Part shown: in pieces, positions 7,547 through 37,254 of the stretch
Layout of the letters: the number at the start of each line of letters is the position of its first letter
Numbering within the stretch: position 1 is the stretch's first letter
Origin: Elusimicrobiota bacterium
GTDB lineage: Bacteria; Elusimicrobiota; Elusimicrobia; UBA1565
Assembly (NCBI GenBank): GCA_016196755.1
Contig: JACPXC010000031.1
Location: forward strand, 1 to 64,000
Length of the DNA stretch: 64,000 nt
Direction: 5' to 3'
Made by a program: the position numbers and the translations under genes
The notes under the pieces: model-generated
The model's database searches: none
Seen by the model: the letters and a program-made list of their open reading frames with translations, nothing else
Told to the model about the DNA's origin: nothing

Positions 7547-7552
7547 ATGTTG

Positions 7553-7558: not shown

Positions 7559-7591
7559 CTTGACTCTTTCGTCTCAAGGAGCCACCCTCAC

Positions 7592-8590: not shown

Positions 8591-8615
8591 AGAGCGCGGG
8601 CTGTCTCAAGAAGAA

Positions 8616-8645: not shown

Positions 8646-8697
8646 CGTCGTAAATCCGTCGCCTGACGCAGCATCCAAAGGCCCATCAGGAGGCCCC

Positions 8698-12877: not shown

Positions 12878-13305
12878 GCGTCCGCGGCGTGCGGCACACG
12901 GGCATCGTGGTGACGCGTCTCGCCCCCGCCGTCCGCTTCTGGACCTCGCTGGGCTTCAAGGTCAAGAGCCGCGCAGTCGAGACCGGCCGCTTCATCGACG
13001 GCGTCGTCGGCCTCCAAGGGGCGAAAGTCTCCTGGGCGAAGCTCACGGCGCCCGACGGCGCCATGGTCGAACTCCTCGAATACCACTCCCACCCCGCGCG
13101 CCCTCGCGGGCGCCGCCCGGCCAACCGAGTCGGAGTCCACCACGTGGCCATGACGGTCCGCGGGGTCGACGCGCTGGTCCGCCGCCTGACCCGGAAGGGA
13201 TTTAAGCCCAATGCCGCGCCGGCCGTCTCGCCGGACGGAAAGGTCAAGGTCGTCTACGTTCATGGGCCCGACGAACTGGTGCTCGAACTCGTGGAGGTCC
13301 TCTGA
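12874..13305 (+). CDS. VOC-superfamily (glyoxalase/methylmalonyl-CoA-epimerase-like) protein
   Basis: 143 residues with two beta-alpha-beta-beta-beta halves: RHTGIVVTRLAPAVRFW at the start and HHVAMTVRGVDALVRRL at about residue 84. His residues at each half and VELLE / LVLELVE strands with Glu fit a metal-dependent vicinal-oxygen-chelate enzyme. ATGA overlap with the aminotransferase. Possible epimerase, lyase or isomerase of a pathway intermediate; no specific function can be assigned. Confidence 0.78.
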   Translation: MSVRGVRHTGIVVTRLAPAVRFWTSLGFKVKSRAVETGRFIDGVVGLQGAKVSWAKLTAPDGAMVELLEYHSHPARPRGRRPANRVGVHHVAMTVRGVDALVRRLTRKGFKPNAAPAVSPDGKVKVVYVHGPDELVLELVEVL

Positions 13306-13319
13306 AACGCGAGCTGGGC

Positions 13320-19059: not shown

Positions 19060-20895
19060 TTGCCCCCCTTGGACATCGTTATCTGCACCACCCCCATCCG
19101 TCCTACCCCGACGGATTACCCCCCGTTCGGGTCCATGGCCATCATCCAAGCGCTGCGCGAGGACGGCTTCGACCCATTTTTCTATGACATCGACGGCCTC
19201 CGGCCCTCTTTCGAGGAAACGGAGCGATTCTTCGCCGAGCGGAAGCCCGACGTCCTCGGCATCAGCGCCGTCGTCTCCACCGCCTACACCTACACGAAGC
19301 GCCTGACGGCCATGGTCCGGCGTGTCTCCCCGAAGACGCGGATCGTCCTCGGCGGGAACATGGCCGCGAGCGCGGAGCTGCTCCATCGCCTGGCAGGCGT
19401 GGAGATATGCGTCATCGGCGAAGGGGAGGTCGTGTCCGTCAACCTGATGCGCGCCCTCCAAGCCTGCACCGGAGGCCCCCTCGACTATGAGGCCCTCGGG
19501 CAGGTCAAAGGCCTCACCTACCTGGACCCCCGCGGCGAGATGACGTTCACCGGCTACGAACTCTCGCTCCCGGCCAAAGAGGTCTTCAAGCCCGACTTCA
19601 CCATCCTCGAGCAGTTTTCCCGCATCTCTAACTTCGTCACCGACCCGATGGAGCGCTCCGACTTCGCGCTGGACCCCCGGTCCCACGAGGCTCATCGCCG
19701 CGGAAAGAAGCAGATCAACCTAGTCACGGCCAAAGGCTGCGTCGCCCGCTGCACTTTCTGCCACCGCTGGGACAAAGGCTATCGTCCCATCCCGGTCGAC
19801 GACATCCTGACCCGCCTCGGCGCCCTCATCGAACGCTACAACGTCGGGTTCGTCCAGTTCTCCGATGAGAACTTCGGGTCCGACCGCCGCCAGACCGAAG
19901 AGTTCATCCGCCGCATCAAGGCGTTCGACATCCTTTGGGAGGTCGGCGGCGTGCGCGTGCGCTCCGTCGACCCGGACCTCCTGCGGCGGATGAAGGACGC
20001 GGGATGCGTCGCGGTCTACTACGGGATGGAGACGGGCAGCCCCCGCATCCTCGAGATCATGGAGAAGAAAGCCACCCTCCAGAACAACCTCGACGCCGCC
20101 CGGTGGACCCGCGAGGCCGGCCTGTTCACCATCTTCCAGATGGTCCTCGCGATGCCGGGCGAGACCCCCGATACCGTCGCGGAGACCGCCGACTTCCTCA
20201 AGCAGGTCACCCAGGACATGCCGGTCGCCCCTCGCTCGCTGATGAGCCTCAACTACATCCAGGCGCTGCCCGGCACGCCGGTCTACGAATACGCCCGCCA
20301 CAAAGGCCTCATCGGACGCTCCCTGGCCGCCGAAGAGGCCTACCTGATGACGATTTCCGACATCGACGCGGCGGACGACACGAAGTTCCTCAATTTCACC
20401 GACCACGATATGCTCACCGTCCGCTCGTGGCGGCGCGAGATCATCCTCGACGTCGTCAGACACTACTACGAGCGCCAAGGCCACCGCCCTCCTCCGCTCT
20501 GGAAGTTCCTGCTTTCCCGGGTCTCCACCGCCCAGCCGTCCTCCCCAGCGCACCCAACCGCCGACCATCATGAGCACTTTCGCCAGCGGGTCATACGCGA
20601 ATATCAGACAGGCGGCTACTTCAACATCCAAAGAGACATGGGTTACGATTTGATCGTCGCCTACTTCTGGCCTTTGCGCCGCGCGGCCCTCGCCATGTCC
20701 TTGTTCCGCGACGAGCTACGGCGCCTCTCCCTCGGGATATTCCTCGAGCATCTGCGAGATTGGGCCCGGTCCCACATCTCATCCCGGAAAACCGGGGTCC
20801 CGACAGAGTCCTTGCGATCCTTGATGACCCGACTCACTCCGCCGGCCCTCACGCCGACCGAAGGCGCCATGGCCCCGCTGAGAGCGGGGCGCTAG
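19060..20895 (+). CDS. B12-binding-domain radical SAM enzyme (1)
   Basis: 611 residues. An N-terminal cobalamin-binding-like domain (PDVLGISAVVSTAYTY, IVLGGNMAAS, VEICVIGEGE) precedes a radical SAM barrel with the cluster motif CVARCTFC (Cys 227, 231, 234). The C-terminal extension of about 150 residues is unassigned. TTG is the start, supported by GGAG six bases upstream and the extended -10 just before. Members methylate unactivated carbons or rearrange carbon skeletons; the substrate here is probably a sugar or lipid-linked intermediate. Confidence 0.85.
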   Translation: MPPLDIVICTTPIRPTPTDYPPFGSMAIIQALREDGFDPFFYDIDGLRPSFEETERFFAERKPDVLGISAVVSTAYTYTKRLTAMVRRVSPKTRIVLGGNMAASAELLHRLAGVEICVIGEGEVVSVNLMRALQACTGGPLDYEALGQVKGLTYLDPRGEMTFTGYELSLPAKEVFKPDFTILEQFSRISNFVTDPMERSDFALDPRSHEAHRRGKKQINLVTAKGCVARCTFCHRWDKGYRPIPVDDILTRLGALIERYNVGFVQFSDENFGSDRRQTEEFIRRIKAFDILWEVGGVRVRSVDPDLLRRMKDAGCVAVYYGMETGSPRILEIMEKKATLQNNLDAARWTREAGLFTIFQMVLAMPGETPDTVAETADFLKQVTQDMPVAPRSLMSLNYIQALPGTPVYEYARHKGLIGRSLAAEEAYLMTISDIDAADDTKFLNFTDHDMLTVRSWRREIILDVVRHYYERQGHRPPPLWKFLLSRVSTAQPSSPAHPTADHHEHFRQRVIREYQTGGYFNIQRDMGYDLIVAYFWPLRRAALAMSLFRDELRRLSLGIFLEHLRDWARSHISSRKTGVPTESLRSLMTRLTPPALTPTEGAMAPLRAGR

Positions 20896-20903
20896 GAGCC
20901 GCC

Positions 20904-22481
20904 ATGAAAGTCCTCCTCGTCTACCCGAACATGATGGGCATGAACATGCTGCCGCCCGCCATCGGGATCTTCGCGGCCCAGCTGCGCGCCGAGGGCCACA
21001 CGGTGGCGCTCTTCGACACCACCAACTACCCCCAGCTCGAAGGGGGCTTTGACTCGGACAAGATGAAGTCCGACAACTTGAACGCCCGCCCTTTCGACGA
21101 CTCCCTGCTCCGCCAGTACGACAAGAACTCCTCGCCGCAGACCGACTTCGTGCGCAAGGTCTCCGAGTTCTCCCCCGGCCTCATCGCCATCTCGGCCACC
21201 GAGGACATGTACCCCATCGCCCTGCACCTGCTCGAGGGCCTGCCCAAGGACCGCCCGCCGGTCCTCTTGGGCGGGGTGTTTGCCACCTTCGCCCCCGAAC
21301 TGGCGCTCCGGAAGTCCGAGGGCTTGGTCGACTACGTTATCAAGGGCGAGGGCGAACGCGGCCTGCCCGAGCTGTGCCGGCGCCTGGAGCGCGGCCAGGT
21401 CGTCGACGGCGTGCCCGGCCTCTGGCGCCTGCGCGCCGACGGCAAGGTGGCCACGAGCCCCCTGCCCGACCCGATCGACGCGAACGAACTGCCGCTCCCC
21501 GACTACGACGACTTCGAGGAGAGCCGCTACTACCGGCCGATGCAGGGCAAGCTCTGGCGCATGTTCCCGGTCGAGACCTTCCGCGGCTGTCCCTACACCT
21601 GCGCCTACTGCAACTCCCCGTCGCAGATGACGACCTACAAGGAAGAGGACAAGAAGTACTTCCGCATGAAGTGGGTCGGCAAGGTGCGCGACGAGATCCG
21701 CCACGTCATCGACAAGTACAAGGCCGACTCCATCTACTTCTGGGCCGACACCTTCCTCTCCTACCATGACAAGGACTTCGACGAGTTCTGCGACATGTAC
21801 GCGGAGTTCAAGCTCCCGTTCTGGATCCAGACCCGGCCCGAGACCATCACCGAGCCCAAGCTCCAGCGCCTAAAAGACGTGGGCCTGCTGCGCATCGCCT
21901 TCGGCCTCGAGCACGGCAACGAGCAGTTCCGCGAGAAGTACCTGCTCCGCAAGGTCCCCAACCAGCGCATCATCGACCGTCTGATGATCCCCTACAAGCT
22001 GGGCATCCCGTTTAGCGTCAACAACATCCTGGGCTTCCCCAACGAGACCCGAGAGCTGGTGTTCGACACCATCGAGCTCAACCGCCAGATCCACTCCGAC
22101 GGCATCAACGCCTACTCGTTTACGCCGTTCCACGGTACGCCCCTGCGGACCCTGGCCGAGGCGCTGGGCCTCATCGACCCGCAGGCCATCGTGCGGTCGA
22201 TCACCAAGCCCACCCTGCTCAACCTGCCTGGCTTCTCGCCCGAACAGATCGAGGGCATCCGGCGCTGCTTCGTCCTCTACGTGAAGATGCCCAAGTCGCG
22301 CTGGCCCGAGATCGAGAAGGCCGAGAAGCTGACCCCGGAAGGGAACGCCGCCTGGAAGGCCCTGCGCGACGACTGCTTCAAGAACTACATGGGCTTCGGC
22401 GGCTACGCCAAGGAAGAGGACATCGGCACGGTCGATGTCGTCAACCAGCAAGTCAATATTTCCGAAGTAAAGAAAGCCTAA
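20904..22481 (+). CDS. B12-binding-domain radical SAM enzyme (2)
   Basis: 525 residues. Starts MKVLLVYPNMMG, with a cobalamin-binding-like N-terminal domain (LLGGVFATFAPE, YVIKGEGE), then the cluster motif CPYTCAYC (Cys 229, 233, 236) in a radical SAM barrel. AGGAG lies 5 bases before the ATG. Codon use is more strongly GC-biased than in the preceding radical SAM gene, so the two are probably not a recent duplication. Likely works in the same pathway as its neighbour; electrons could come from the reductase/Fe-S pair at 24877-26713. Confidence 0.86.
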   Translation: MKVLLVYPNMMGMNMLPPAIGIFAAQLRAEGHTVALFDTTNYPQLEGGFDSDKMKSDNLNARPFDDSLLRQYDKNSSPQTDFVRKVSEFSPGLIAISATEDMYPIALHLLEGLPKDRPPVLLGGVFATFAPELALRKSEGLVDYVIKGEGERGLPELCRRLERGQVVDGVPGLWRLRADGKVATSPLPDPIDANELPLPDYDDFEESRYYRPMQGKLWRMFPVETFRGCPYTCAYCNSPSQMTTYKEEDKKYFRMKWVGKVRDEIRHVIDKYKADSIYFWADTFLSYHDKDFDEFCDMYAEFKLPFWIQTRPETITEPKLQRLKDVGLLRIAFGLEHGNEQFREKYLLRKVPNQRIIDRLMIPYKLGIPFSVNNILGFPNETRELVFDTIELNRQIHSDGINAYSFTPFHGTPLRTLAEALGLIDPQAIVRSITKPTLLNLPGFSPEQIEGIRRCFVLYVKMPKSRWPEIEKAEKLTPEGNAAWKALRDDCFKNYMGFGGYAKEEDIGTVDVVNQQVNISEVKKA

Positions 22482-22505: not shown

Positions 22506-24122
22506 ATGCGCCCGTTACACGTCTTAGACTGCACCTTCCGGGACGGCGGCTACTACAACAACTGGGACTTCCCCTCCGGCTTAGTCGAGCAGTATCTGGC
22601 CGCGATGGCGGCATCCCACGTGGACGTGGTCGAGATCGGCTTCCGCTTCCTGGCCCAGCCGCGCTTCCTGGGAGCGCACGCCTACAGCTCCGACGATTTC
22701 CTCAAGACCCTCCCGCGCCCGCGCGGGCTCAAGTTCGCGGTGATGGTCAACGCCGACGAGCTCCTCAAGCATGCCGGCGGCCCGGACGCCGCCGTCGACC
22801 GGCTCTTTAAGCCCGCATCCTCCTCGCCGGTCTCCCTGGTCCGTATCGCCGCTCATTTCGCCGACCTGCCGCGCTGCGCGGCCATCGCAAAGCGCCTCAA
22901 GGGCCTGGGCTACGCCGTCGCCGTCAACCTCATGCAGGCCGGCGGCAAGAGCGCCGCCGCCGTCACCGCGGCCGCCAAGGTCGTGCGCTCGTGGAAGGTC
23001 GCCGAGACGCTGTACTTCGCCGACTCCCTGGGCAACATGCCCCCGGACGAAATCGCCGGCATCGTGAAGGCCCTGCGCGCCGGCTGGGGCGGGCCGCTGG
23101 GCATCCACGCCCACAACAACATGGGCCAGGCCCTGGCCAACACGATCGCCGCCGTAGACGCCGGCGCCTCCTGGGCCGACGCCACCGTGCTCGGCATGGG
23201 CCGCGGCGCGGGCAACGTCCCCACCGAGTACCTGCTCCTCGAGCTCCAGCGCCGGGCCAAGCGCCCGGGGAACCTCGATCCGCTCTTCGCGCTGGCCCTG
23301 GGGCCGTTCGCGCGCCTGCAGCGCGACTTCGGCTGGGGACCGAGCCTGCTCTATTATCTCTCGGCCGTGCACGGCATCCACCCAACCTACGTGCAGACCA
23401 TGCTCGGTAAGGGCCACTACTCGCCGGACCAGGTCATCGCCGCCGTCGAGTCGCTGCGCGCCGGCGACGCCAGCTCCTACAGCGGCACGCGGCTGGAAGA
23501 AGCCCTGCACAGCGACCCCGGCTCCTCCGAAGGCACTTGGACGCCGCGCGGCTGGGCCAAGGGCCGCCCCGTGCTCCTCGTGGCCGCGGGCCCCAGCCTC
23601 AAGCACCACGGCGACGCGCTTCGGCGCTTTATCGCGCGCGAGAAGCCGCTGGTCCTGGCCCTCAACGCCATCGAGTCCCTGCCCCCCCACATGGTCGACG
23701 CCTACGCGGCCTGCCATAAGGTCAGCCTGCTCATGGACGCCGAGCGCTACCGCACCCTCGGCCGCCCGCTGATCGTCCCGAAGGGCCGCATCCCCAAGGA
23801 GCTGCACGGCAAGCTGGCCAAGGTCAAGCTGCTCGACTACGGCATGGGCCTGGCCCGCGACACCGTCTCGGTCGGCGAGACCGGCTGCGTGCTGCCCTCG
23901 CCGATGTCGGCCGGCTACACGCTGGCGGTGGCCGAGGTGGCCGGGGCCCCCCGCGTCTGGCTGGCGGGTTTCGACGGCTACGAGGCCTCCGACCCCCGTC
24001 AGCACGACATGAACGACATGCTGCGCCGCTACACCGCGCGCCCCGGCGCGCTGCCGCTGACCGCCATGACGCCCACCACCTTCGAGCTCCCCCAGGGCTC
24101 GCTCTACGCGCCCGCGTCGTGA
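22506..24122 (+). CDS. DRE-TIM aldolase fused to an MptE/DUF115-like domain
   Basis: 538 residues. Residues 1 to about 290 are a DmpG/HMG-CoA-lyase-type metal-dependent aldolase: LDCTFRDGGYYNN at 7-19 and the metal-binding HAHNNMG near residue 202. From about residue 350, VLLVAAGPSLKHHGDAL and later VWLAGFDGYEASD resemble the MptE/DUF115-like fold of some surface-glycan proteins. DmpG enzymes join or cleave pyruvate and aldehydes, so the N-terminal part may build a 2-keto acid sugar. No Shine-Dalgarno; possibly leaderless. The fusion ties carbon-chain extension to an unknown second activity. Confidence 0.8.
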   Translation: MRPLHVLDCTFRDGGYYNNWDFPSGLVEQYLAAMAASHVDVVEIGFRFLAQPRFLGAHAYSSDDFLKTLPRPRGLKFAVMVNADELLKHAGGPDAAVDRLFKPASSSPVSLVRIAAHFADLPRCAAIAKRLKGLGYAVAVNLMQAGGKSAAAVTAAAKVVRSWKVAETLYFADSLGNMPPDEIAGIVKALRAGWGGPLGIHAHNNMGQALANTIAAVDAGASWADATVLGMGRGAGNVPTEYLLLELQRRAKRPGNLDPLFALALGPFARLQRDFGWGPSLLYYLSAVHGIHPTYVQTMLGKGHYSPDQVIAAVESLRAGDASSYSGTRLEEALHSDPGSSEGTWTPRGWAKGRPVLLVAAGPSLKHHGDALRRFIAREKPLVLALNAIESLPPHMVDAYAACHKVSLLMDAERYRTLGRPLIVPKGRIPKELHGKLAKVKLLDYGMGLARDTVSVGETGCVLPSPMSAGYTLAVAEVAGAPRVWLAGFDGYEASDPRQHDMNDMLRRYTARPGALPLTAMTPTTFELPQGSLYAPAS

Positions 24123-24877
24123 GCGCCCTCGGCCGTTTAAAAGACGCCTTTAAGACCGCCGAGCACGTCTGCTTCGACAAAGACGGCACGCTGACCGACG
24201 TCCACGCCTATTGGGCGCATACCTGCCGCCTGCGCGCCGCGCGCCTGGCCATGCGCCATCCGCGCGCGTCCTCCGAGGCCCTCCTGGCCGGGATGGGGAT
24301 CGACCCGGCCAAAGACCGCATCCTGCCCGGCGGCCCGGTGGGACTCAAGCCCCGCCCGGACGTCATCCGCGCCGCCGTCGACGCCCTGGCCGCGGCGGGC
24401 GCCGTCGTCCCGCCGGCGGAGGTCGAGGCGGTCTTCAAGGAGCTCGACCTCTGGCAGCAGGAGCACGCCTCCTACAAGGTCGTCGAGTTGGCCGGCGCCC
24501 GCGAGCTGCTCGACGCCCTGGCCAGGCACGGCAAGAAGCTGTCGATATTCTCCTCCGACCGCCGCGAGAACAGCGCGCGGGTCTTCGAAAGCCTGGGCTG
24601 GACCGCGCGATTTGCGGCCGTGGTCGGCGGGGGCTGCATCAAGAAGAGCAAGCCGTCGCCCGAGGGATTCCTCGAGGCCTGCAAGCGCGTCGGCGCGGCG
24701 CCGGGCAAGTCCATCTACGTCGGCGACACCGTCGAGGACATGCTCATGGCCGCCGAGGGCGGCGCGCTGGCGGCCGTCGGCGTGGCCACCGGCCTGGCCA
24801 CGGCCGAGGAGCTCGAAGCCCACACTCCCTTCGTCGTGGCCGGCCTGGCCGAGCTCTCCGAGGTCCTGGGAGCCTGA
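24119..24877 (+). CDS. HAD-superfamily phosphatase
   Basis: 252 residues with FDKDGTLTD (motif I), SIFSSDRRENS (motif II), KKSKPSP (motif III Lys) and IYVGDTVEDM (motif IV). The helical insertion between motifs I and II indicates a capped phosphoglycolate-phosphatase-like member rather than KdsC itself. GTG start, GTGA overlap with the aldolase fusion. By position it may dephosphorylate the ulosonic acid phosphate before CMP activation by the KdsB-like enzyme. Confidence 0.85.
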   Translation: MSALGRLKDAFKTAEHVCFDKDGTLTDVHAYWAHTCRLRAARLAMRHPRASSEALLAGMGIDPAKDRILPGGPVGLKPRPDVIRAAVDALAAAGAVVPPAEVEAVFKELDLWQQEHASYKVVELAGARELLDALARHGKKLSIFSSDRRENSARVFESLGWTARFAAVVGGGCIKKSKPSPEGFLEACKRVGAAPGKSIYVGDTVEDMLMAAEGGALAAVGVATGLATAEELEAHTPFVVAGLAELSEVLGA

Positions 24878-25710
24878 TGTACAACGCCACCGCCGAGCTC
24901 GTGCGCGAGGCGTCGAACGCGCGCATCATCCGCGTGCGGCCGGACTGGCCCAAGCGCCGCCGGCTGGGCGGGCAGTACGGCAGCCTGGGCCTGGCCTCGG
25001 CCGCCGACCCCGCCAAGCTCGTCAAGCGCGCCTACTCGGTGTCGAGCCCCATGGTGGACGCCTCCGGAGCCCTCATCGACGACGACGAGGTGGACTGGCT
25101 GGAGTTCTACTTCAACCGGGTCGCCGGCGCGCCCGACCGCGAGGGCCTGACCCCCAAGCTCTTCGCGCTCAAGTCCGGCGACCGCATCTTCTGCGGCGAG
25201 AAGATCACCGGCCATTGCACCTTGGAGCGCGTGCCGCGCGAGCGCGACCTCCTGCTCGTCTCCACCACGACCGGCGAGGCCGCCGCCAACGCCATCCTGG
25301 CCCAGCACCTGGCCGAGGGGCGCCCCGGCATGGCCTGCAGCCTGGTGCTCGGCGACGCGGCCTGGGAGAGCCTCTACCGCCCCGAGCACGCCGCTCTCCA
25401 GAAGGCGTTCCCCCGCGCCCGCGTCGTCGAGGTCTCGGCCGACGACGCCGTGACCCGGACCGAGGCCATGCTCAAGGCCGCCTTCGCCGACGCCGAGACC
25501 TCGCGCCGCTCGTTCGGCTTCGCTCTCGCGCCGACCAAGACCCATTTCTTCCTCATCGGCGACCCGGCCATGATCGGAGCGCCGCGCAAGCTCGGCGCCT
25601 GGACCTACGAGGACGCCGCCGGCGGCCTCCTGCCGGTCCTGGCCAAAGCGGGATTCACTCCGGCCACGCGCTTCAAGGAAGGGGACATAGACCATGAAAG
25701 CTACTGGTAA
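24877..25710 (+). CDS. Ferredoxin-NADP+ reductase-like flavoprotein
   Basis: 277 residues. The FAD-binding signature RAYSVSSP appears at about residue 50 and is followed by the GEKITGHCTLE strand, then a nucleotide-binding half starting LLLVSTTTGEAAAN. The family passes electrons between NAD(P)H and ferredoxin or flavodoxin. ATG start sharing its A with the HAD stop. It is directly coupled (17-base overlap) to the Fe-S protein gene that follows, so the two probably form an electron-transfer pair. Such a module is not expected in a polysaccharide operon. Confidence 0.8.
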   Translation: MYNATAELVREASNARIIRVRPDWPKRRRLGGQYGSLGLASAADPAKLVKRAYSVSSPMVDASGALIDDDEVDWLEFYFNRVAGAPDREGLTPKLFALKSGDRIFCGEKITGHCTLERVPRERDLLLVSTTTGEAAANAILAQHLAEGRPGMACSLVLGDAAWESLYRPEHAALQKAFPRARVVEVSADDAVTRTEAMLKAAFADAETSRRSFGFALAPTKTHFFLIGDPAMIGAPRKLGAWTYEDAAGGLLPVLAKAGFTPATRFKEGDIDHESYW

Positions 25711-26713
25711 GACCGCCGTCTCGCGCCTCGAGGCCCAGCGCAAGATCCTCAAGGCCGGCCACTTCTTCAAGCTCATCTGCGGCGCCGGCAACGAGGACCC
25801 CGACGAGGTCTACAAGCTGAGCCTGGTCTACACTTTGGCCGGGGCTCTCGGCATCGACTTGGCCGCCCGCGCCGACGTGGTCACCGCGGCCAAGCGCGGC
25901 GTAGCCGACGCCAAGAAGCTGGCCCCCGCCTACGGCCTCAAAGAGTTCATCGCGCCCTACCTGACCGTCTCGGTGGGCATGGCCGGCGACCCGCACGTGC
26001 GCAAGGCCCGGATCCTCGACGACAACTGCACCGAGTGCAACGCCTGCATCCCGGTCTGCCCCACCGAGGCCATCCCGAAGTCCTTGACCATCATCGAGAG
26101 CCGCTGCATCGGCTGCGGCGCCTGCGGCGTGGCCTGCCAAGACGACGCCATCGGCTACTCGCACAAGACTATCGCGATGGAGAAGGTCCTCAAAGAGTGC
26201 ATCGCGGCCGGCGCCGAGAACATCGAGCTGCACTGCGCCGTCCCCGACCACGAGCAGTCGCTCAAGGAGTGGAAGCTCGTAGCGGGCCTCCTGCCCGACG
26301 GGTTCTTGAGCGTCTGCGTGGACCGCGGCTATCTTTCGAACCACGAGCTCAAGAAGCGCCTCGAGCTCATGCTCGAGCACGCCCGCGGGCGCATGATCGT
26401 CCAGGCCGACGGCATCCCGATGAGCGGCGGCAAGGACGACTTCAACACCACCCTCCAGGCCGTGGCCACGGCCGACATCGTGGCCAAGATGAAGCTGCCG
26501 GTGCATCTACTGCTCTCGGGCGGCACCAACTCGAAGACCGTCGAGCTCTCGAAAGCCTGCGGCGTCCCGTACGCCGGGGCGTCCTTGGGCACCTACGCCC
26601 GCCACCTAGTCTACGAGCACTTAAACGACCCCGCCTTCCCCGACGAGAAGGCCCTGCGGCCCGCCGTCGAGAAGGCCCGGCGCCTGGTCGAGACCTGCCG
26701 GCCCATGGAGTGA
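25694..26713 (+). CDS. LdpA-like protein with two [4Fe-4S] motifs
   Basis: 339 residues. The N-terminal FFKLICGAGNEDPDEV and LVYTLAGALGIDLAAR resemble LdpA, an iron-sulfur protein first described as a cyanobacterial clock input. A ferredoxin module follows with CTECNACIPVCP (near 112-123) and CIGCGACGVACQ (near 138-149), enough for two [4Fe-4S] clusters. The rest is a TIM-like domain (IVQADGIPMSGG, LLSGGTNSKT). It probably accepts electrons from the upstream flavoprotein. Assignment as LdpA-like is from remembered motifs, not a search. Confidence 0.75.
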   Translation: MKATGKTAVSRLEAQRKILKAGHFFKLICGAGNEDPDEVYKLSLVYTLAGALGIDLAARADVVTAAKRGVADAKKLAPAYGLKEFIAPYLTVSVGMAGDPHVRKARILDDNCTECNACIPVCPTEAIPKSLTIIESRCIGCGACGVACQDDAIGYSHKTIAMEKVLKECIAAGAENIELHCAVPDHEQSLKEWKLVAGLLPDGFLSVCVDRGYLSNHELKKRLELMLEHARGRMIVQADGIPMSGGKDDFNTTLQAVATADIVAKMKLPVHLLLSGGTNSKTVELSKACGVPYAGASLGTYARHLVYEHLNDPAFPDEKALRPAVEKARRLVETCRPME

Positions 26714-26717
26714 CCCC

Positions 26718-27494
26718 ATGCTCGAAAAGAACCCCCTGAAGGAGAAGCTCGCCGCCGGGAAGGCCTGCCTGGGCACCTGGAACACGTTGGCCTCGCCCCT
26801 GGTCACCGACGCGCTGGCCCACTCCGGCCTCGACTTCGTCATCGTCGACATGGAGCACGGCGCGTTCAAGCCCGACCTGATCGGCCCGGCGGTCTCGGCC
26901 TGCGAGGCTCGCGGCGTCTCGGCCCTGGTGCGCATGCCGGCGCTCGAGGACTGGCTGGTCCTGCAGGCGTTAGACCAGGGAGCCCACGGCGTCGTCATCC
27001 CCCACATCGAGAGCGCCGAGGACGCCAAGAAGCTGGTCTCTTACGCCAAGTACCACCCGCTAGGCACCAGAGGCTTTACCCCGTTCCCCAAGGGCGGCGG
27101 CTTCACGGGCCAGGGCGCGGCCACCTACGCCGCGCGCGCCAACCTGCTGACGATGACCGCGGCCATCGTCGAGTCCAAGGCCGGCCTCGACGCGCTCGAC
27201 GGCATCCTCGGGGTCGAAGGCCTCGACGTGGTCTACTTCGGCGCCTACGACCTCTCCCAGGCCCTGGGCGTCCCCGGCCAGGTCGACTCGCCCGCCCTCC
27301 TCAAGGTCATCGAGGACGGCGTACGCCGCGCGCGCAAGGCCGGCAAGGCCGCCGGCGGCTTCGTGCCGCGCTCGCGCGAGCACCTCAAGCGCTGCCTCGA
27401 CATGGGGATGACCTTCATCACCTATGAGGTCGATTCGTCCGCTCTGGCCCGGCCCTACGCCGAGGCCGCCGCCTGGCTGCGCGAGGGCCAGTGA
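26718..27494 (+). CDS. HpcH/HpaI-family class II aldolase
   Basis: 258 residues: LGTWNTLASP, VIVDMEHGAFKP (metal-binding region), GVVIPHIESAEDAKK and the family sequence GTRGFTP. These enzymes reversibly join pyruvate (or oxaloacetate) with an aldehyde to give 4-hydroxy-2-keto acids such as 2-keto-3-deoxy sugar acids. The neighbour downstream is a CMP-Kdo-synthetase-like gene, which makes a biosynthetic role (forming a 3-deoxy-ulosonic acid from pyruvate) attractive. No KdsA-type synthase is seen in the window. Confidence 0.87.
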   Translation: MLEKNPLKEKLAAGKACLGTWNTLASPLVTDALAHSGLDFVIVDMEHGAFKPDLIGPAVSACEARGVSALVRMPALEDWLVLQALDQGAHGVVIPHIESAEDAKKLVSYAKYHPLGTRGFTPFPKGGGFTGQGAATYAARANLLTMTAAIVESKAGLDALDGILGVEGLDVVYFGAYDLSQALGVPGQVDSPALLKVIEDGVRRARKAGKAAGGFVPRSREHLKRCLDMGMTFITYEVDSSALARPYAEAAAWLREGQ

Positions 27495-28234
27495 GCTCGA
27501 AGGTCGTAGCGCTGATCCCGGCGCGCCTCGAGTCCTCGCGCCTGCCGCGCAAAGCCTTGGTCGATATCTGCGGCCTGCCGATGATCGTCCACGTCCTCAA
27601 GCGCTGTCAGCGCGCGAAGAGCTTGGACGAGGTCATCGTAGCCACCGACAACGCCGAGATCCGCGACGCCGTCGAAAAGGCCGGCGGGCGCGTCATCATG
27701 ACGCGCTCCGACCACCAGACCGGCAGCGACCGCATCGCCGAGGCCGCCTCCAAGCTCGACTGCTCCATCGTCGTCAACATCCAGGGCGACGAGGCCCTGG
27801 TGAAGCCCGAGCACGTCGACGCCGCGGTCCGGGGCCTGCAGGCCGACCCCGAGGCCGGCATCGCCCTCTTGGTCAACCCTTTCAAGAAGTACCAGTCGCC
27901 CTCCGACATCAAGGTCGTCCTCGACGAGCGCGGCTACGTCATGTACCTCTCGCGCGCCGACATCCCCTCGGGCGCGCGCACTCCCCAGCCGCCGATGCTC
28001 AAGGCCTACCACGTCGTCCCGTTCCGCAAGGCGTTCCTCCTCGAGTACGCGGCCTGGCCCAAGGGAGCGCTCGAGCAGATCGAATTCAACGAGTATCTGC
28101 GCATCCTCGAGAAGGGACGGCGCATCCGCGCCGTCCACGTAGACTCCAGCGCGGTCAGCGTCGACACGGCCGCCGACCTCGAGTTCGTGCGCGGCGAGAT
28201 GGCGAAGGACGCGCTATTTGCGGAGTATCGCTGA
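27491..28234 (+). CDS. 3-deoxy-manno-octulosonate cytidylyltransferase family (KdsB-like)
   Basis: 247 residues: ALIPARLESSRLPRKAL at the N terminus, VIMTRSDHQTGSDRIAEA and VVNIQGDEALV match CMP-Kdo synthetases. It activates a 3-deoxy-ulosonic acid with CTP. GTG start in a GTGA overlap with the aldolase. It could be the housekeeping KdsB, but its tight coupling to aldolase and Fe-S genes suggests a dedicated activating enzyme for a Kdo-like sugar. Confidence 0.88.
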   Translation: MSSKVVALIPARLESSRLPRKALVDICGLPMIVHVLKRCQRAKSLDEVIVATDNAEIRDAVEKAGGRVIMTRSDHQTGSDRIAEAASKLDCSIVVNIQGDEALVKPEHVDAAVRGLQADPEAGIALLVNPFKKYQSPSDIKVVLDERGYVMYLSRADIPSGARTPQPPMLKAYHVVPFRKAFLLEYAAWPKGALEQIEFNEYLRILEKGRRIRAVHVDSSAVSVDTAADLEFVRGEMAKDALFAEYR

Positions 28235-29988
28235 TGCGGCTGGCCCACCCCCGCGAGCTGCCCGAGCGCGCCGCGGCGGGGCTCAGCGGCACCTGGGCCT
28301 ACGTGGGCCGCGACGACTTCGAGCTGCGGCGCTGGGAAGCGGCTTTGGCCGGGAAGCTCGAGCGCCTGCCGGTAGGCGCCGCGCTCCAGGACGCCGCGGC
28401 GCGCCTGCGGACGCCGTTCCTCACGGCGCTGGCCGAGGCCGGCAAGGCCAACGACTCGCTTGAGTGGTGGTCGGGACGCATCGCCGACGAGGATACGCTG
28501 ACGGGCTCGCTGTTCTTCTGGACCTGCGCCCTGGAGGTCGTGCGGACCCTGCGCGCCGGCCCGCGGCCGCCCGTCCTCATCGTCTCCGAGAACGAGGACT
28601 TCCTGGCCGCCCTCGGCGACAGGAGCCTCCTGCGCCCGCGCCTGCGCGACGCCCTCCTGGCCGCCGGGCGCTGGGCGCGCTGGGCCTGGCGCTCGCTCGG
28701 CGAATGGGCCGCGGCCCGCCGCTCCGGCGCGCCCGCCCCGCTCGGCGACGGCAAGGGCGCGGTCCTGCTCCACACCTGGGCGGGGCCGGGCTACTTCGCT
28801 AAGGACGGCCCCAAAGACGCCTACTTCGGCCCGCTGGCCAAGCTCCTGACCGAGCGCGGCAAGCGCGTCGTCGTCCTGCCCTTCCTCCAGTCCCCCGGCC
28901 GCCCGCGCGTCGAGGCCCTGGCCTGGCTGCGCAAGAGCGGCGACCACCTCATCGCCGAGGACCACTATAGCCTGGTCGACTATATCTGGGCCGCGGCCGT
29001 GGCCTTCCGTGCCGCCTCGTTACCCGGCGAGTTCCCGAAGGTGGCGGGCCTGGACCTGAGCGTCCTCGTGGCCCGCGAGCGGCGCCTCCAGCGCGCGAAC
29101 ACCTCGAAGGTCCCGTTCATCATGTACGCGCGCTTGGTGTCGCGCCTTGCGGAGCGGGGCTTCCAGCCCGACGCCGCCATCCAGACCTTCGAGAACAGCG
29201 CCGACGAAAAGCCCCTGCTCATCGCGGCGCGCGAGAATTGGCCGCGCACGCTGACCGTAGGCTACCAGCACAACGTATCGCTCTTGCCCATGATGGTCCA
29301 GCATTTCACGGCCCCCGACGGGCCCCAGCCCCAGCGCATCGTCTGCTGCTCGCCGTTCCTCAAGGGCCTGCTCGAGCGCCACGGCTTCAAGCCCGAGACC
29401 CTGCGCGTGGGGCCGTCCTTGCGCTACCTCTCGATCCTGCCGCCGCCGCCCCCGCACGCGCCGGAGCCGAACACGGTGCTGGTCTGCCTGTCGCTCGAGG
29501 CCGGCGGGGCCGTCGAGACCGCCTTCCTGGTCGGGGAGGCCCTGCGCGGCCGGCCCGACGTCAAGGTCCGGGTCAAGCCGCATCCGATGACGCCGCAGGA
29601 CCTGCTCGCGCGGCTCAAGGCCGAGCTCTCGGGGCCCAAGTTCGAGTTCGTCTCAGGCCGCGTCGAGGACTGGTCCGCGCGCTCGGCCTGCGCCGTGGTG
29701 GCCGGCAGCACGGTGTCGATGGACTTCGCCCTGGCCGGCGTGCCGGTGGTCCAGGTCGGCCGCGAGACCGCGCTCGACTTCGACCCGCTGGCCTATTTCG
29801 ACGGCTTTCCGCGGCCCGTCCGCGACGCGGCCGCCCTGCGCCGCGAGGTGGAGAAGGCCCTGGCCGCGGCCGGCGCCGACGCCGCGGCGCTCATGGCCCA
29901 GGCCGGCCGCCTGCGCGCCGAATGCTTGAGCCCGCTGACCCCCGAATCCATGGACGCGTTCCTGCCGGAGGCCGCATGCGCGGTCTGA
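28234..29988 (+). CDS. Large surface-carbohydrate biosynthesis protein (putative glycosyltransferase)
   Basis: 584 residues without clear membrane segments. The middle has AVLLHTWAGPGYF and LLTERGKRVVVLPFLQ; the C-terminal half has VGYQHNVSLLPMM, VCCSPFLKGLL, a proline-rich linker, VKVRVKPHPMTP and CAVVAGSTVSMDFALAGVPVV, a GT-B donor site as in Kdo-transferase- or capsule-type enzymes. ATG start in an ATGA overlap; the longer frame from 27424 is a shadow. By position it is the likely transferase for the CMP-sugar made by the preceding genes. Confidence 0.68.
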   Translation: MRLAHPRELPERAAAGLSGTWAYVGRDDFELRRWEAALAGKLERLPVGAALQDAAARLRTPFLTALAEAGKANDSLEWWSGRIADEDTLTGSLFFWTCALEVVRTLRAGPRPPVLIVSENEDFLAALGDRSLLRPRLRDALLAAGRWARWAWRSLGEWAAARRSGAPAPLGDGKGAVLLHTWAGPGYFAKDGPKDAYFGPLAKLLTERGKRVVVLPFLQSPGRPRVEALAWLRKSGDHLIAEDHYSLVDYIWAAAVAFRAASLPGEFPKVAGLDLSVLVARERRLQRANTSKVPFIMYARLVSRLAERGFQPDAAIQTFENSADEKPLLIAARENWPRTLTVGYQHNVSLLPMMVQHFTAPDGPQPQRIVCCSPFLKGLLERHGFKPETLRVGPSLRYLSILPPPPPHAPEPNTVLVCLSLEAGGAVETAFLVGEALRGRPDVKVRVKPHPMTPQDLLARLKAELSGPKFEFVSGRVEDWSARSACAVVAGSTVSMDFALAGVPVVQVGRETALDFDPLAYFDGFPRPVRDAAALRREVEKALAAAGADAAALMAQAGRLRAECLSPLTPESMDAFLPEAACAV

Positions 29989-30866
29989 CCCGCCGCGTCC
30001 TGCGCGCGGCCGGACGGCGCTTGAGCGCGCTCTCCGAACGGTTGGCCGACGACCGCCCCGGGGAGGCGCACCGGCGCGCGGTGCTGTCCGCCAACGCCGG
30101 CCACGACATGGCCGCCGACCCCGACGAGGCGCACTACGCGCGCCAGTACCTGAGCCTGATCACGCCGGCTCTCGAGACGCTGTCGGCGGGCAAGAGCGCG
30201 AAGATCCTGGACCTGGGCTGCGGCCATGGGCGGTTGACCATTCCCTGCGCCGAATTTGCGAGCGCGGGCCGCGTCGTCGCCGTGGACTTCAGCGCCTCCG
30301 CGCTGGCCAGCCTTGCCGCCGGCGCGAAGGCTAAGGGCTTGGGCAACGTCGGGTTGTGCGAGGCCGATGCGGCAACCTTTGCCGCCGGCCTGCCTCCGGG
30401 TTCGTTCGACGCCGCGCTTTGCTGCGAGGTGCTCTACAACGTCCCCGAGTGGCGGGCTGTCCTGTCCTCCCTTTCAAAAGCCCTCAAGCCCGGCGGCGTC
30501 CTCGTCGTGTCGCTGCGCTCGCGCTGGTTCGAGTTGACCCGCGCCGCCGCGGCCCGCGACATGAAGAGCGCCCGGACCGCCCGCGACGCCCGCGAGGGCC
30601 GCTTCGGCGACGGCGACGCCTGGTCGTGCTGGCACACCCCCGAGGAGGCCGCCGCGGCCGTCACCGCCGCCGGCCTGTCCGTCGAGCGCGTGGCCGGCAT
30701 CGGCGTCTTGAGCGGCCTGCCCGACGACCCTTTTGGAAGATTGTTGAGCCCCAGCCGCCTGGTCGGAGACGAGCGCTGCGGGCTCTTCGAGCTGGAGACC
30801 TCCCTGGCCTCGGAGTACGCCGGCCAGGGACGCTACATCGCCGTGGTCGCGCGGAGAAACCCATGA
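29976..30866 (+). CDS. Class I SAM-dependent methyltransferase
   Basis: 296 residues. ILDLGCGHGRLT is motif I, VVAVDFSASAL follows, and CCEVLYNVPEW then LKPGGVLVVSL are motifs IV-V. Overlaps the upstream glycosyltransferase by 13 bases and the downstream aminotransferase by 4. Probably methylates a sugar residue or glycan end; methyl capping can set chain length in O-antigens. Confidence 0.82.
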   Translation: MRGLTRRVLRAAGRRLSALSERLADDRPGEAHRRAVLSANAGHDMAADPDEAHYARQYLSLITPALETLSAGKSAKILDLGCGHGRLTIPCAEFASAGRVVAVDFSASALASLAAGAKAKGLGNVGLCEADAATFAAGLPPGSFDAALCCEVLYNVPEWRAVLSSLSKALKPGGVLVVSLRSRWFELTRAAAARDMKSARTARDAREGRFGDGDAWSCWHTPEEAAAAVTAAGLSVERVAGIGVLSGLPDDPFGRLLSPSRLVGDERCGLFELETSLASEYAGQGRYIAVVARRNP

Positions 30867-31987
30867 TCGCCATCTCAAAGCCCGTCACCGGACCCGAGGA
30901 GATCGCCGCCATGTCGAAGGTCTTCGACTCCGGCTGGCTCGGCCTGGGCGCCACCGTCCAGGAGTTCGAGGAAGCCCTCAAGGCCTACCTGGGCGCCAAG
31001 CACGTGGTGGCGGTCAACACCGGCACCTCCGCCATCCACTTGGCGCTGGCCGCCTTGAAGCTCAAGCCCGGCGACGAGGTCATCGTCCCGTCAATCACCT
31101 TCGGCGCCTGCGTGCAGTCCATACTCCAGGCCGGCGGCACGCCGGTCTTCGCCGAGTCGCGCGCAGAGGACCTCCTGCTCGACGTAGACGACGTGGAGCG
31201 CAAGCTCACCTCGCGAACCAAGGCCGTGATGCCGGTCCACTACTGCGGCAACCCCTGCGACTTAGAGCGCCTGCGCGCTCTTGGCAAGGCCAAGGGCTTC
31301 GTCGTCGTCGAGGACGCCGCCCACGCCTTGGGCTCGGACTACAAAGGCGGCAAGATCGGCGGCACGGGCAAGCTGGTCTGCTTCAGCTTTGACCCCATCA
31401 AGAACATCACCACCGGCGAGGGGGGCGCTGTCGCCACCGACGACGACGCCCTGGCCGAGGACATGCGCCGCATGCGCATCCTCGGCATCGACAAGGAGAC
31501 CTGGCGGCGCTACAACAACACCCGGGGCTATCTCTACGAGATCACCTCCGACGGGTTCCGCTACCACATGCCGAACTTCTGCGCCGCGGTGGGCTTGGTT
31601 CAGATGAAGAAGCTCCCCGGCTTCGTCGCGCGGCGCCGCGAGATCGCCAAGCGCTACGACGCGGCATTCAAGGGCCTGCCCGGGCTCATGACCCTGACGG
31701 TCGACTACGCGACGGTGGCGCCGCACATCTACATCGTGCGCGTCGACGCCGCCCGGCGCGAGGCGCACATGGAGGCGCTCAAGGCCAAGGGCGTGGCCAC
31801 GGGCGTGCACTACATCGCCAACCACATCCAACCCTACTTCAAGCCGTTCGTGAGGACGCCGCTGCCCGTGGCCGACCGGCTCTGGCAGGAGATCATGACC
31901 ATCCCGCTCCACTGCGGGATGACGGACGCCGACGTGGAGACCGTCATCGGGGCCGTGAAGGGGTTGTTCGCCAGGCAGGCGGCGTAG
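30863..31987 (+). CDS. DegT/DnrJ/EryC1/StrS-family aminotransferase
   Basis: 374 residues, full family length. AVNTGTSAIHLAL, VEDAAHALGS with the cofactor Asp, and SFDPIKNITTGEGG carrying the PLP Lys are all present; it ends with the usual IMTIPLHCGMTDADVE segment. This class converts 4-keto (or 3-keto) NDP-sugars to amino sugars. It could be the partner of the LegB-like dehydratase at 34641-35666, as LegC is of LegB. Last gene before the lower-GC insert. Confidence 0.9.
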   Translation: MIAISKPVTGPEEIAAMSKVFDSGWLGLGATVQEFEEALKAYLGAKHVVAVNTGTSAIHLALAALKLKPGDEVIVPSITFGACVQSILQAGGTPVFAESRAEDLLLDVDDVERKLTSRTKAVMPVHYCGNPCDLERLRALGKAKGFVVVEDAAHALGSDYKGGKIGGTGKLVCFSFDPIKNITTGEGGAVATDDDALAEDMRRMRILGIDKETWRRYNNTRGYLYEITSDGFRYHMPNFCAAVGLVQMKKLPGFVARRREIAKRYDAAFKGLPGLMTLTVDYATVAPHIYIVRVDAARREAHMEALKAKGVATGVHYIANHIQPYFKPFVRTPLPVADRLWQEIMTIPLHCGMTDADVETVIGAVKGLFARQAA

Positions 31988-34261: not shown

Positions 34262-34648
34262 TGGGTCAGCGAGGATTACGCCGCCCTCGCGGCCATGTTC
34301 GAGGCGGCCGAGCTTTGGCGCCAAGACGAAACCGCGCTGAGACCCGGCCGGCTCATCCTCCGGCTGCGCCGCGGCCTCCAGGTCAGTCAGCGCGAGCTGG
34401 CGCGGCGCTCTGGCGTGCCCAGGTCCCAGCTCGAGCGCATCGAAGCCGGCAAGGATTGCCGAATGAGCTCGATTCTCCGACTCATGGAGGCGCTGGGCTG
34501 CGCCCTCGTCGTGCTTCCCGCCTCGGAACCGCTTCTGGCGGAATTCAAGGAGAAAGCGACCAGGCAGGCGCGGTGCGACAGAGAATGGGAAGAAGCCAAG
34601 GCGGAACTGCGGCGAACCGCCCTCCCGGACCCGCCCGGAAATGGCTAG
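34250..34648 (+). CDS. XRE-family helix-turn-helix regulator
   Basis: 132 residues from ATG 34250. The HTH is RLRRGLQVSQRELARRSGVP then RSQLERIEAG, a standard Cro/C1-type domain at roughly residues 35-70, followed by SSILRLMEALGCALVVLP as in HipB-like antitoxin/regulator proteins. A GTG at 34133 would add 39 N-terminal residues but runs through the inverted-repeat array, so the shorter form is preferred. No toxin partner is visible beside it. It may control its own gene and the glycan operon downstream. Confidence 0.75.
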   Translation: MRMRWVSEDYAALAAMFEAAELWRQDETALRPGRLILRLRRGLQVSQRELARRSGVPRSQLERIEAGKDCRMSSILRLMEALGCALVVLPASEPLLAEFKEKATRQARCDREWEEAKAELRRTALPDPPGNG

Positions 34649-34651
34649 AAT
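34646..34651 (+). promoter_or_regulatory. -10 box before the LegB-like gene
   Basis: TAGAAT lies seven bases before an in-frame GTG (34659), the same layout as before the methyltransferase at 58273. It suggests a leaderless transcript beginning with the LegB-like gene. Confidence 0.4.
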
Positions 34652-34658
34652 CGCTTTT

Positions 34659-35666
34659 GTGACCACGGTTTCTCAGTCCTGGCGCGGCGAACGCGTCCTC
34701 GTCACGGGCGCCGGCGGCTTCATCGGCTCCCACCTGACCGAGACCCTGGCCGCGCGCGGCGCGAAGGTCCGCGCTTTGGTGCGCTACAACGGCCGCAACG
34801 ACTGGGGCCACCTCGAGGCGCTCGACCCCGCACTCAAGAAGAACGTCGAAGTCGTCTCCGGCGACGTCCGCGACCCGCGCCAGACCGCCGAGGCGGTCAG
34901 CGGCTGCTCGACCGTCTTCCATCTGGCCGCCCTGATCGCCATCCCCTACTCGTATCACGCCCCCCAGAGCTTCGTCGACGTCAACGTCACCGGCACGCTC
35001 AACATCCTCGAGGCCTGCCGCGAGGCGCGGGTCAAGCGCCTGGTCCATACCTCGACCTCGGAGGTCTACGGCACCGCGCGCTACGCCCCCATCGACGAGG
35101 AACATCCCCTGCAGGGCCAGTCGCCCTACTCGGCCTCGAAGATCGCCGCCGACAAGATCGTCGAGAGCTACCACCGCTCCTTCGGCCTGCCGGCCGTCAC
35201 CGTGCGGCCCTTCAACACCTACGGCCCGCGCCAGTCGGCCCGCGCCGTCATCCCGGCGGTGCTCTGCCAGCTGCTCTCCGGCAAGAAGACCCTGGCCGTG
35301 GGCTCGCTCGAGCCGGTGCGCGACTTCAACTACGTGGCCGACACCGTTGAGGGATTTTTGGCCGCGGCGCGCGCGCCCAAGGCCGTCGGCGAGGTCCTCA
35401 ACATCGGCGCCGGCCGCGGGGTCACCATCGGCCGCACCGTCGAACTCTTGATGAAGCTCAGCGGCCGCAAAGCCGCCCTGCGCCAGGACGCGCGCCGGGT
35501 CCGCCCCGCCAAGAGCGAGGTCTTCAAGCTGCTCTGCGACAACCGCAAAGCCGCCAAGCTCGCCGGCTGGAAGCCCAAGTTCAGTCTTGAAGAGGGGCTC
35601 GTGCGCACCATCGAGCACGTGCGCGCCAACCTCGAATCCTACAAGTCGGACCTCTACAACCTCTGA
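34659..35666 (+). CDS. NAD-dependent 4,6-dehydratase, LegB-like
   Basis: About 335 residues. VLVTGAGGFIGSHL, the family-specific HLAALIAIPYSYHAP, TSEVYGTA, catalytic SPYSASK and RPFNTYGPRQSARAVIP closely follow LegB-type dehydratases, which act on GDP-GlcNAc in Campylobacter legionaminic acid synthesis or UDP-GlcNAc in related systems. Start: GTG 34659 is chosen because a -10 box lies seven bases upstream; ATG 34641 (overlapping the XRE stop) adds six residues and is possible. The next gene encodes a nucleotidyltransferase, as expected for precursor supply. Confidence 0.87.
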   Translation: MTTVSQSWRGERVLVTGAGGFIGSHLTETLAARGAKVRALVRYNGRNDWGHLEALDPALKKNVEVVSGDVRDPRQTAEAVSGCSTVFHLAALIAIPYSYHAPQSFVDVNVTGTLNILEACREARVKRLVHTSTSEVYGTARYAPIDEEHPLQGQSPYSASKIAADKIVESYHRSFGLPAVTVRPFNTYGPRQSARAVIPAVLCQLLSGKKTLAVGSLEPVRDFNYVADTVEGFLAAARAPKAVGEVLNIGAGRGVTIGRTVELLMKLSGRKAALRQDARRVRPAKSEVFKLLCDNRKAAKLAGWKPKFSLEEGLVRTIEHVRANLESYKSDLYNL

Positions 35667-36376
35667 TGCAGGCCGTCATCCTCGCCGGCGGAAAAGGAAC
35701 TCGGCTCAGGCCGTTCACGACCTCTTTGCCCAAGCCGCTCGTGCCGCTAGGCGAGCAGCCCATCATCGAGGTCATCCTGCGCCAGCTCAAGGCCGCCGGC
35801 TTCAAAGAGGTCGTCGTCTCGGTCGGGCACTTAGCCGAGCTCATCGCGGCCTACTGCGGCGACGGCAAGCGCTGGGGCCTGCGCCTGCGCTACGCGCGCG
35901 AGGCCAAGCCCTTGTCGACGGCCGGCGCCCTGCGCGAGATCTCCGGGCTGGCCCCGAACTTTTTGACCATCAACGGCGACATCCTGACCACCTTGAGCGC
36001 CAAGGCCCTCTTCGCCGACCACATGAAGTCCAAAGCCCACGCCACGGTGGCCGTCTGCCAGCGCACGACCACGGTCTCCTTCGGCGTCATCACGCTCGAC
36101 GCCAAGAAGCGCGTCACCGCCTATACCGAGAAGCCCTCGCTCACATACAGCGTCAGCATGGGCGTCAACGTGTTCTCCCGCGAGTCCCTCAAGCTCATCA
36201 AGAAAGGCGAGGCGCTGGGCATCCCCGAGTTCATCGACCGCATCCGGGCCAAGGGCGGCCTGGTCCGCGGCTATCCGACCAAGGCCGAGTGGCTCGACAT
36301 AGGGCGGCCAGAGGATTATGAGACCGCCCAGGCCATCTTCGACTCCCCCCGCCTGCGCGCGCGCTACCTGCCGTGA
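35666..36376 (+). CDS. Sugar-1-phosphate nucleotidyltransferase
   Basis: 236 residues. AVILAGGKGTRLRPFTTSLPK is the NTP-binding signature, followed by VVSVGHLAELI and the ingdI/L metal-binding NGDIL. Length fits a minimal nucleotidyltransferase without the CBS domains seen in PtmE. Given the LegB-like neighbour it may be a glucosamine-1-P or mannose-1-P guanylyl/uridylyltransferase. ATG sharing its A with the LegB-like gene's stop. Confidence 0.88.
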   Translation: MQAVILAGGKGTRLRPFTTSLPKPLVPLGEQPIIEVILRQLKAAGFKEVVVSVGHLAELIAAYCGDGKRWGLRLRYAREAKPLSTAGALREISGLAPNFLTINGDILTTLSAKALFADHMKSKAHATVAVCQRTTTVSFGVITLDAKKRVTAYTEKPSLTYSVSMGVNVFSRESLKLIKKGEALGIPEFIDRIRAKGGLVRGYPTKAEWLDIGRPEDYETAQAIFDSPRLRARYLP

Positions 36377-37254
36377 GGTTCCGCCGCGTCCTGGTCACGG
36401 GCGCCAACGGCTTCCTGGCCTCGGCCCTACTGCCGCTCTTAAAGAAGCGGCTCCCACGCGCCAAGGTCGTCGCCGCCTCGCGCAAGACCTCCGACCTCGC
36501 GGACTGCGGCGCGGCGCGCCGCCTAATCGCCCGCGCGCGTCCCGACCTCGTCATGCACTTGGCCGGAGCGCGCCCGCCGGCGGACTTGGACGCGCTCTGG
36601 CGCGACAACGTCACGGCCACCATCCGGCTCTGCGCGGCGCTCCGAGGGACCGGCGCCCGGCTCGTCGTCGCCGGCTCGAGCGGCGAGTACGGCCCCGCCC
36701 CCAAACGGCCGGTCAGCGAGGACTTCCCGGCCAATCCGCTGACGCTCTACGGCCGGGTCAAGCACGCCCAGACCCTGGCCGCGCTGTCCTTCGTCCACGA
36801 GGGGCTGGATGTCCGCGTGGCCCGGCTCTTCAACGTCCTCGGTCCCGGCACGCCCGAGAGCCTGGCCCCCGGCGCCTTCGCGGCCCAGGCCGCGCGGCTC
36901 GAGCGGGCCGGCGGCGGCACGCTCAAGGTGGGCGACCTGCGCCCGACCCGCGACTATATCGACGTGCGCGACGCGGCCGCGGGCCTGCTCGCCGTGGCGC
37001 TGGCGCCCGCTCTTTCGGGCTGCACGAACGTCTGCTCGGGCCGCGGGGTGGCGATGTCCCAGGTCCTCGAGGGCATCCTCGACGCCGCGCGCGCCCCGCT
37101 CAAGGCGGTCCGCGACCCCGCGCGCCTGCGCGCCGTCGAGGTGCGCGGCATCACGGGCTCGCATGCCCGCCTCACCCGCGCCGCCGGCTGGCGGCCGCGC
37201 GTCGCGTTGGAACGCTCGCTCAAGGATACCCTGGCATGGCACCGCTCAGCCTGA
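36373..37254 (+). CDS. NAD-dependent epimerase/dehydratase
   Basis: 293 residues, GTG start in a GTGA overlap. VLVTGANGFLASALLPLL is the nucleotide-binding start (second Gly position replaced by Ala), SGEYGP and LTLYGRVK supply the catalytic Tyr-Lys, and RPTRDYIDVRD is family-typical. Probably the 4-reductase or epimerase step for the NDP-sugar activated by the previous gene, as in GDP-rhamnose or dTDP-sugar routes. Confidence 0.85.
   Translation: MRFRRVLVTGANGFLASALLPLLKKRLPRAKVVAASRKTSDLADCGAARRLIARARPDLVMHLAGARPPADLDALWRDNVTATIRLCAALRGTGARLVVAGSSGEYGPAPKRPVSEDFPANPLTLYGRVKHAQTLAALSFVHEGLDVRVARLFNVLGPGTPESLAPGAFAAQAARLERAGGGTLKVGDLRPTRDYIDVRDAAAGLLAVALAPALSGCTNVCSGRGVAMSQVLEGILDAARAPLKAVRDPARLRAVEVRGITGSHARLTRAAGWRPRVALERSLKDTLAWHRSA

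Follow-up and report, generated by a model that had tools for sequence, protein, structure and literature searches.

The window, by which we mean the whole 64,000-nucleotide stretch of Elusimicrobiota DNA analysed here, contains a run of tightly packed genes (Table 1). Genes A to G are spaced by overlaps of 4 (A/B), 1 (B/C), 17 (C/D), 4 (E/F) and 1 (F/G) nucleotides, and by a gap of 4 nucleotides between D and E. An earlier note on this DNA had described seven overlapping or nearly abutting genes at 22506-29988, and their coordinates and strand all agree with this description. The limits given to the block were too narrow, as the coupled run continues upstream into two radical-SAM genes (r1 and r2) and downstream through a methyltransferase-like ORF and a DegT aminotransferase gene. 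A single transcript spanning about 19.0 to 32.0 kb is therefore likely.

Table 1. Genes of the coupled run, with their positions in the window and the basis of each assignment.
Gene and assignment	Position	Strand	Basis or remark
r1, B12-binding radical-SAM protein	19060-20895	+	8 bp upstream of r2; putative cassette member
r2, B12-binding radical-SAM protein	20904-22481	+	24 bp upstream of A
A, DmpG/HMGL-type aldolase with C-terminal domain	22506-24122	+	Profile scan
B, HAD-IA phosphatase	24119-24877	+	Profile scan, catalytic motifs intact
C, ferredoxin-NADP-reductase-like flavoprotein	24877-25710	+	Weak profile and PDB matches, motifs
D, LdpA-family protein	25694-26713	+	LdpA_C domain, alignment, structure model
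E, HpcH/HpaI-type pyruvate aldolase	26718-27494	+	PF03328
F, KdsB-like CMP-sugar-acid synthetase, distinct clade	27491-28234	+	TIGR00466, tree, motifs
G, GT-B-type glycosyltransferase	28234-29988	+	Fold matches, HP and ST motifs
Methyltransferase-like ORF	29976-30866		Overlaps the downstream end of the A to G block
DegT aminotransferase	30863-31987		Downstream, part of the coupled run

The run encodes two aldolases. Protein A matches the HMGL-like family (PF00682, 93 bits) and falls well short of the DmpG equivalog for 4-hydroxy-2-oxovalerate aldolase (91 vs. 286 bits). Its closest PDB entry, 3dxi, is an uncharacterised 'putative aldolase', and its C-terminal domain weakly resembles MptE, as seen in the homologue from locus L005. 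Protein E scores below every equivalog cut-off, including that of HpaI (136 vs. 369 bits). In the HpaI/YfaU family, an H, an R, an E and a D are catalytic residues, and in A-type enzymes the RD and HxH motifs form the metal site. Both sets (H47, R72, E152 and D178 in E; RD and HxH in A) were kept in every sequence in which the corresponding stretch was present, and the HAD motifs of phosphatase B were intact in nearly all cassette members. The view that pyruvate-type aldolases lie at the core of the block thus stands, the catalytic residues of A and E being intact in a cassette that, as described below, is recurrent.

Protein D contains an LdpA_C domain (PF12617; 53.5 bits vs. a cut-off of 22.2), in agreement with its previous assignment as LdpA-like. 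Its score against the equivalog for the circadian-clock LdpA (NF045992) was far lower than required (164.5 vs. 450 bits), and our tree separated photosynthetic LdpA, a melainabacterial/ThDP-context group and a cassette/viral group from each other. The sub-cut-off score and the separate clade indicate that D is a relative within the family rather than the clock protein itself. Eight ferredoxin-type cysteines, from C112 to C148, were invariant in a family alignment of 22 sequences, predicting two [4Fe-4S] sites. The same alignment showed N33-E34, D99-x-H101, E178-x-H180, Q237-x-D239-G, P242-M-S-G-G, S275-G-G-T-N and A302-R303 to be invariant. In a structure model with a mean pLDDT of 90.9, eight barrel strands were found at residues 24-29, 53-57, 89-95, 176-180, 205-209, 234-238, 271-274 and 295-298; D is thus predicted to form a complete (beta/alpha)8 TIM barrel, with the two [4Fe-4S] clusters inserted between strands 3 and 4. 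The invariant residues sit at, or just past, the strand ends of the modelled barrel, which is where TIM-barrel active sites lie. The PDB folds matched by D are those of class II fructose- and tagatose-bisphosphate aldolases, TrpA and ribulose-phosphate epimerase (RPE), matches too distant (8-13% identity, TM about 0.5) to point to a particular reaction. Searching BFVD with the fold of D yielded one unnamed match within the limit of E ≤ 0.001 (4e-4); nothing LdpA-like was found. The cysteines fit the idea of a double [4Fe-4S] protein, while the role of mere electron carrier gives way to that of a predicted whole TIM-barrel enzyme.

No Pfam domain was matched by protein C, which resembled ferredoxin-NADP reductase only weakly (NF008178, 3e-6, 27 bits vs. 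a cut-off of 390; PDB 1fdr, 3.6e-4). An RxYSxS flavin motif was present in all three copies of C, and the C-terminal YW was kept. Protein G likewise gave no Pfam match and a weak one to TIGR04326; its GT-B fold matches come from a low-confidence model (pLDDT 66), from which the donor cannot be read.

When 84,980 species genomes were scanned with D, 25 loci were obtained. Most of the set was present at L004-L007, which belong to two Omnitrophica, a delta-proteobacterial endosymbiont and a Bacteroidales genome. In phylum samples that take in the starting genomes, D was carried by 3/341 genomes of the window's phylum, 10/384 Omnitrophota, 6/345 genomes from the phylum of the endosymbiont (which we take to be Desulfobacterota) and 1/395 from that of the Bacteroidales genome, this one being the starting genome itself. 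At the 17 loci of these samples with a readable neighbourhood, D was accompanied by B without exception, by A at 16 and by each of E, F and G at 15; a ThDP enzyme replaced F and G in the other two. The cassette of A, B, D, E, F and G was found in at least four phyla. Its genes run A-D-B-E-F-G or E-A-D-B-F-G in Omnitrophota, in the phylum of the endosymbiont and in a phylum-mate, while the Bacteroidales genome has a variant order. The reverse search, with a profile of F whose rows come partly from the same Omnitrophota genomes, gave eight strong matches in 275 genomes of that phylum (364-447 bits, the next best being 264). All eight genomes also hold D; as they are related, these co-occurrences are not independent events. 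Conservation of the block as a unit had been named beforehand as a test, and the neighbourhood comparison, with similar gene orders in several phyla, speaks in its favour. The D protein of the window is closest to those of Omnitrophota (73% identity) and was not found in other sampled members of the genome's own genus and family, which suggests that D entered this genome by horizontal transfer.

The FNR-like gene C behaved differently from the rest of the set, being present in only 3/17 cassettes (the window, L004 and L145). It is thus an accessory and not the core part it was once taken for, and its pairing with the Fe-S protein is a local variant. A reductive step fed through this pair, as originally proposed, loses its generality, while reductive chemistry as such may still be envisaged. 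B12-radical-SAM genes of several subfamilies were seen in or beside about nine cassettes, and r2 has close homologues at the L147 cassette and, with 54% identity, between F and G at L145.

A second type of cassette, in which D-B-A(-E) is followed by a ThDP enzyme, with neither F nor G, was seen at L107, L143, L012, L015, L018 and the viral locus L052. LdpA-like genes also occur on 19 IMG/VR viral contigs (L035-L053), mostly beside one or two HpcH-like aldolase genes, a ThDP enzyme and sugar genes. One of these contigs, L044, additionally gave matches of recombinase/helicase-like and HNH type; its LdpA-like protein had no PHROG match, and no LdpA-like genes were found in cultured phages and plasmids. 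In a partial Prochlorococcus genome (L008), the LdpA-like gene adjoins a diverged paralogue (944-1849) that lacks the Fe-S stretch, along with two HpcH-like genes, a HAD gene and a CMP-transferase gene; no KdsA was seen in this partial genome, whose KdsB-like protein departs from the usual site motifs.

Protein F passed the cut-off of the KdsB profile (TIGR00466; 173.3 vs. 155.2 bits), confirming that it is KdsB-like. The 16 cassette proteins grouped as one clade (support 99/97) in a 36-protein tree, and in the alignment all 16 have replaced two motifs: KHxGxY (KHVGIYAY in KpsU) by K(A/M/L)xxxVxF, and LEQ by (N/I)EY. The histidine of KH and the LEQ motif, whose positions we take to line the Kdo site in KdsB structures, were kept in all 18 canonical KdsBs of the KdsA-bearing carrier genomes vs. 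0/16 cassette F proteins. As had been noted, there was no KdsA among the window genes scanned, nor was any matched in or near the cassette in 20 loci. A KdsA gene does exist elsewhere in the same genome, on contig C56 (32481-33248; 372 bits vs. a cut-off of 314), about 2 kb from a separate KdsB gene (34961-35662) and with a CTP synthase gene between them. More generally, KdsA was above cut-off in 18/19 D-carrying genomes, and those 18 also have a canonical KdsB outside the cassette. The earlier note had held that a kdsA gene with its own kdsB in another operon would speak against its idea. The pair on C56 is just such an arrangement, and the idea survives it in modified form: the separate KdsA and KdsB, together with the loss of the Kdo-site motifs from F, make it very likely that the cassette serves a different acid, made in addition to Kdo.

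Other genes for surface sugars were seen in the same island. A second sugar-acid block (7547-15770) contains DegT, NeuB, methyltransferase, CMP-transferase, glyoxalase-like and xylose-isomerase-like genes and two SDR genes. NDP-sugar epimerase/dehydratase genes and a nucleotidyltransferase gene lie at 34641-37254, and a KdsD-like SIS and CBS sugar-phosphate isomerase gene at 41152-42129.

The reading we favour, with a probability of roughly 0.6, is that the block is a horizontally spread cassette whose enzymes produce a 3-deoxy-2-ulosonic acid distinct from Kdo, couple it to CMP and transfer it in the synthesis of a surface polysaccharide. The computed support consists of the conservation of the gene set, the aldolase and HAD residues, the motifs of F, the separate Kdo pathway and the predicted fold of D with its conserved face. 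In the proposed route, D, which would be an essential component, acts with radical-SAM enzymes and, in the window, the FNR-like protein, and would prepare or reduce a phosphorylated sugar, from which B would remove the phosphate. Aldol addition of pyruvate to the resulting free aldehyde, by E and/or A, would then yield the ulosonic acid, which F would load onto CMP and G would transfer. The ulosonic-acid module of the earlier note is thereby retained, as a recurring gene set with pyruvate-type aldolases and an activated ulosonic acid as its proposed product, minus its FNR core and its original boundaries. Two observations sit less comfortably with this reading. The presence of two aldolases in one cassette is not accounted for, and LdpA-like genes that travel with a ThDP enzyme instead of F and G (L107, L143, L012, L015 and L018) show that D need not serve a CMP-ulosonate.

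The nature of the chemistry carried out by D is where the strongest competing explanation lies. The pathway may be the same, with D a barrel that relies on a metal or on phosphate to catalyse an aldol or isomerase step and whose clusters are structural or redox-sensing; redox sensing by Fe-S clusters has been proposed for LdpA in the clock. The nearest folds of D (class II aldolases, TrpA and RPE), the DxH and ExH pairs that could hold a metal, the Prochlorococcus paralogue lacking the Fe-S stretch and the absence of the FNR gene from most cassettes are all consistent with such a role, and this last point weakens the case for redox coupling. However, none of the eight cluster cysteines varies across the family alignment, and in the model the Fe-S insert lies at the barrel's catalytic end; both points favour delivery of electrons to the site of D. 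We therefore regard a non-redox D as a serious minority possibility. Redox chemistry in D is probable rather than proven, with the Fe-S insert and the local FNR speaking for it and the rarity of FNR and the aldolase-like fold still permitting a non-redox step.

The identity of the product can also be questioned. It could be an acidic or branched sugar rather than a 3-deoxy-ulosonic acid, with F activating some other acid and the aldolases cleaving or building a side chain. The altered motifs of F, the B12-radical-SAM genes, suggestive of an extra modification, and the loci that pair D, B, A and E with a ThDP enzyme and lack F would fit such a product. The known substrates of the KdsB family are, on the other hand, ulosonic acids, and HpcH aldolases with a full set of catalytic residues make 2-keto-3-deoxy acids, which makes this proposal unlikely in our view. 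An aldolase-based second route to ordinary Kdo is more improbable still, and we have rejected it. Although F passes the KdsB cut-off and the KdsD-like gene lies in the window, KdsA and a canonical KdsB are found elsewhere in 18/19 carrier genomes, and the motifs lost throughout the F clade are kept in all 18 canonical KdsBs. Lastly, the window, with its further sugar genes, represents a surface-polysaccharide island, a variable setting in which such genes might accumulate by chance; the recurrence of a similar gene order across several phyla and the co-occurrence of F with D effectively rule this out.

If the favoured reading of an additional, non-Kdo ulosonic acid is correct, the cassette marks an activated sugar acid produced beside the normal Kdo pathway in lineages that are mostly uncultured. 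We found no described pathway with this gene set in the open-licence literature, as the earlier note had anticipated, an absence that is no proof of novelty; nor did we find a paper there describing LdpA as a TIM barrel. In a 2017 survey covering 11,264 genomes, LdpA was reported only in Cyanobacteria (PMC5520375), a range with which the occurrence of D contrasts, and according to a 2026 review it is unknown how LdpA controls the clock protein CikA (PMC13421787). In our own searches, LdpA-family genes were present in 145/146 Cyanobacteriota genomes, Melainabacteria/Gastranaerophilales included, which argues for a family role wider than the clock. The cassette context points to an enzymatic role for LdpA proteins: their relatives occur in sugar cassettes of non-cyanobacterial phyla and on viral contigs, and the conserved, catalytic-looking barrel, with residues that can be named, hints at a chemical activity. 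We advance only tentatively the broader proposal that LdpA proteins could be an Fe-S TIM-barrel enzyme family of sugar-acid metabolism, that catalysis by clock LdpA might underlie its effect on period, and that the cassette might be a new CMP-ulosonic acid pathway with parts carried by phages.

The cassette has elements in common with several known systems. With the CMP-Kdo pathway (KdsD-KdsA-KdsC-KdsB-WaaA) it shares a KdsB-family synthetase, a phosphatase and a glycosyltransferase, but it has pyruvate-type aldolases instead of the PEP-dependent KdsA, and the motifs of F are replaced. The logic of a CMP-activated ulosonate is also that of the nonulosonic (sialic, legionaminic and pseudaminic) acid pathways; these use PEP-dependent NeuB-type synthases, none of which is found inside the cassette, although NeuB occurs near six cassettes and in this window. 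E has the fold family and catalytic residues of the HpaI/YfaU/GarL pyruvate aldolases, whose named members are catabolic, whereas E lies in a biosynthetic cassette. C has the RxYSxS motif and C-terminal YW of Fpr-type ferredoxin-NADP reductases, with a far lower profile score and a presence in only three cassettes. Finally, LdpA (light-dependent period A), a cyanobacterial clock input protein, shares with D the LdpA_C domain, the two [4Fe-4S] sites and most pocket motifs (DPHxRKA, EIH, QxDGxPMSG, GGTN and GxxAR). The photosynthetic LdpA proteins nevertheless form a distant, separate clade (support 100/100) and have GAS where D has AGNE, and, unlike clock LdpA, D sits in sugar cassettes outside Cyanobacteria.
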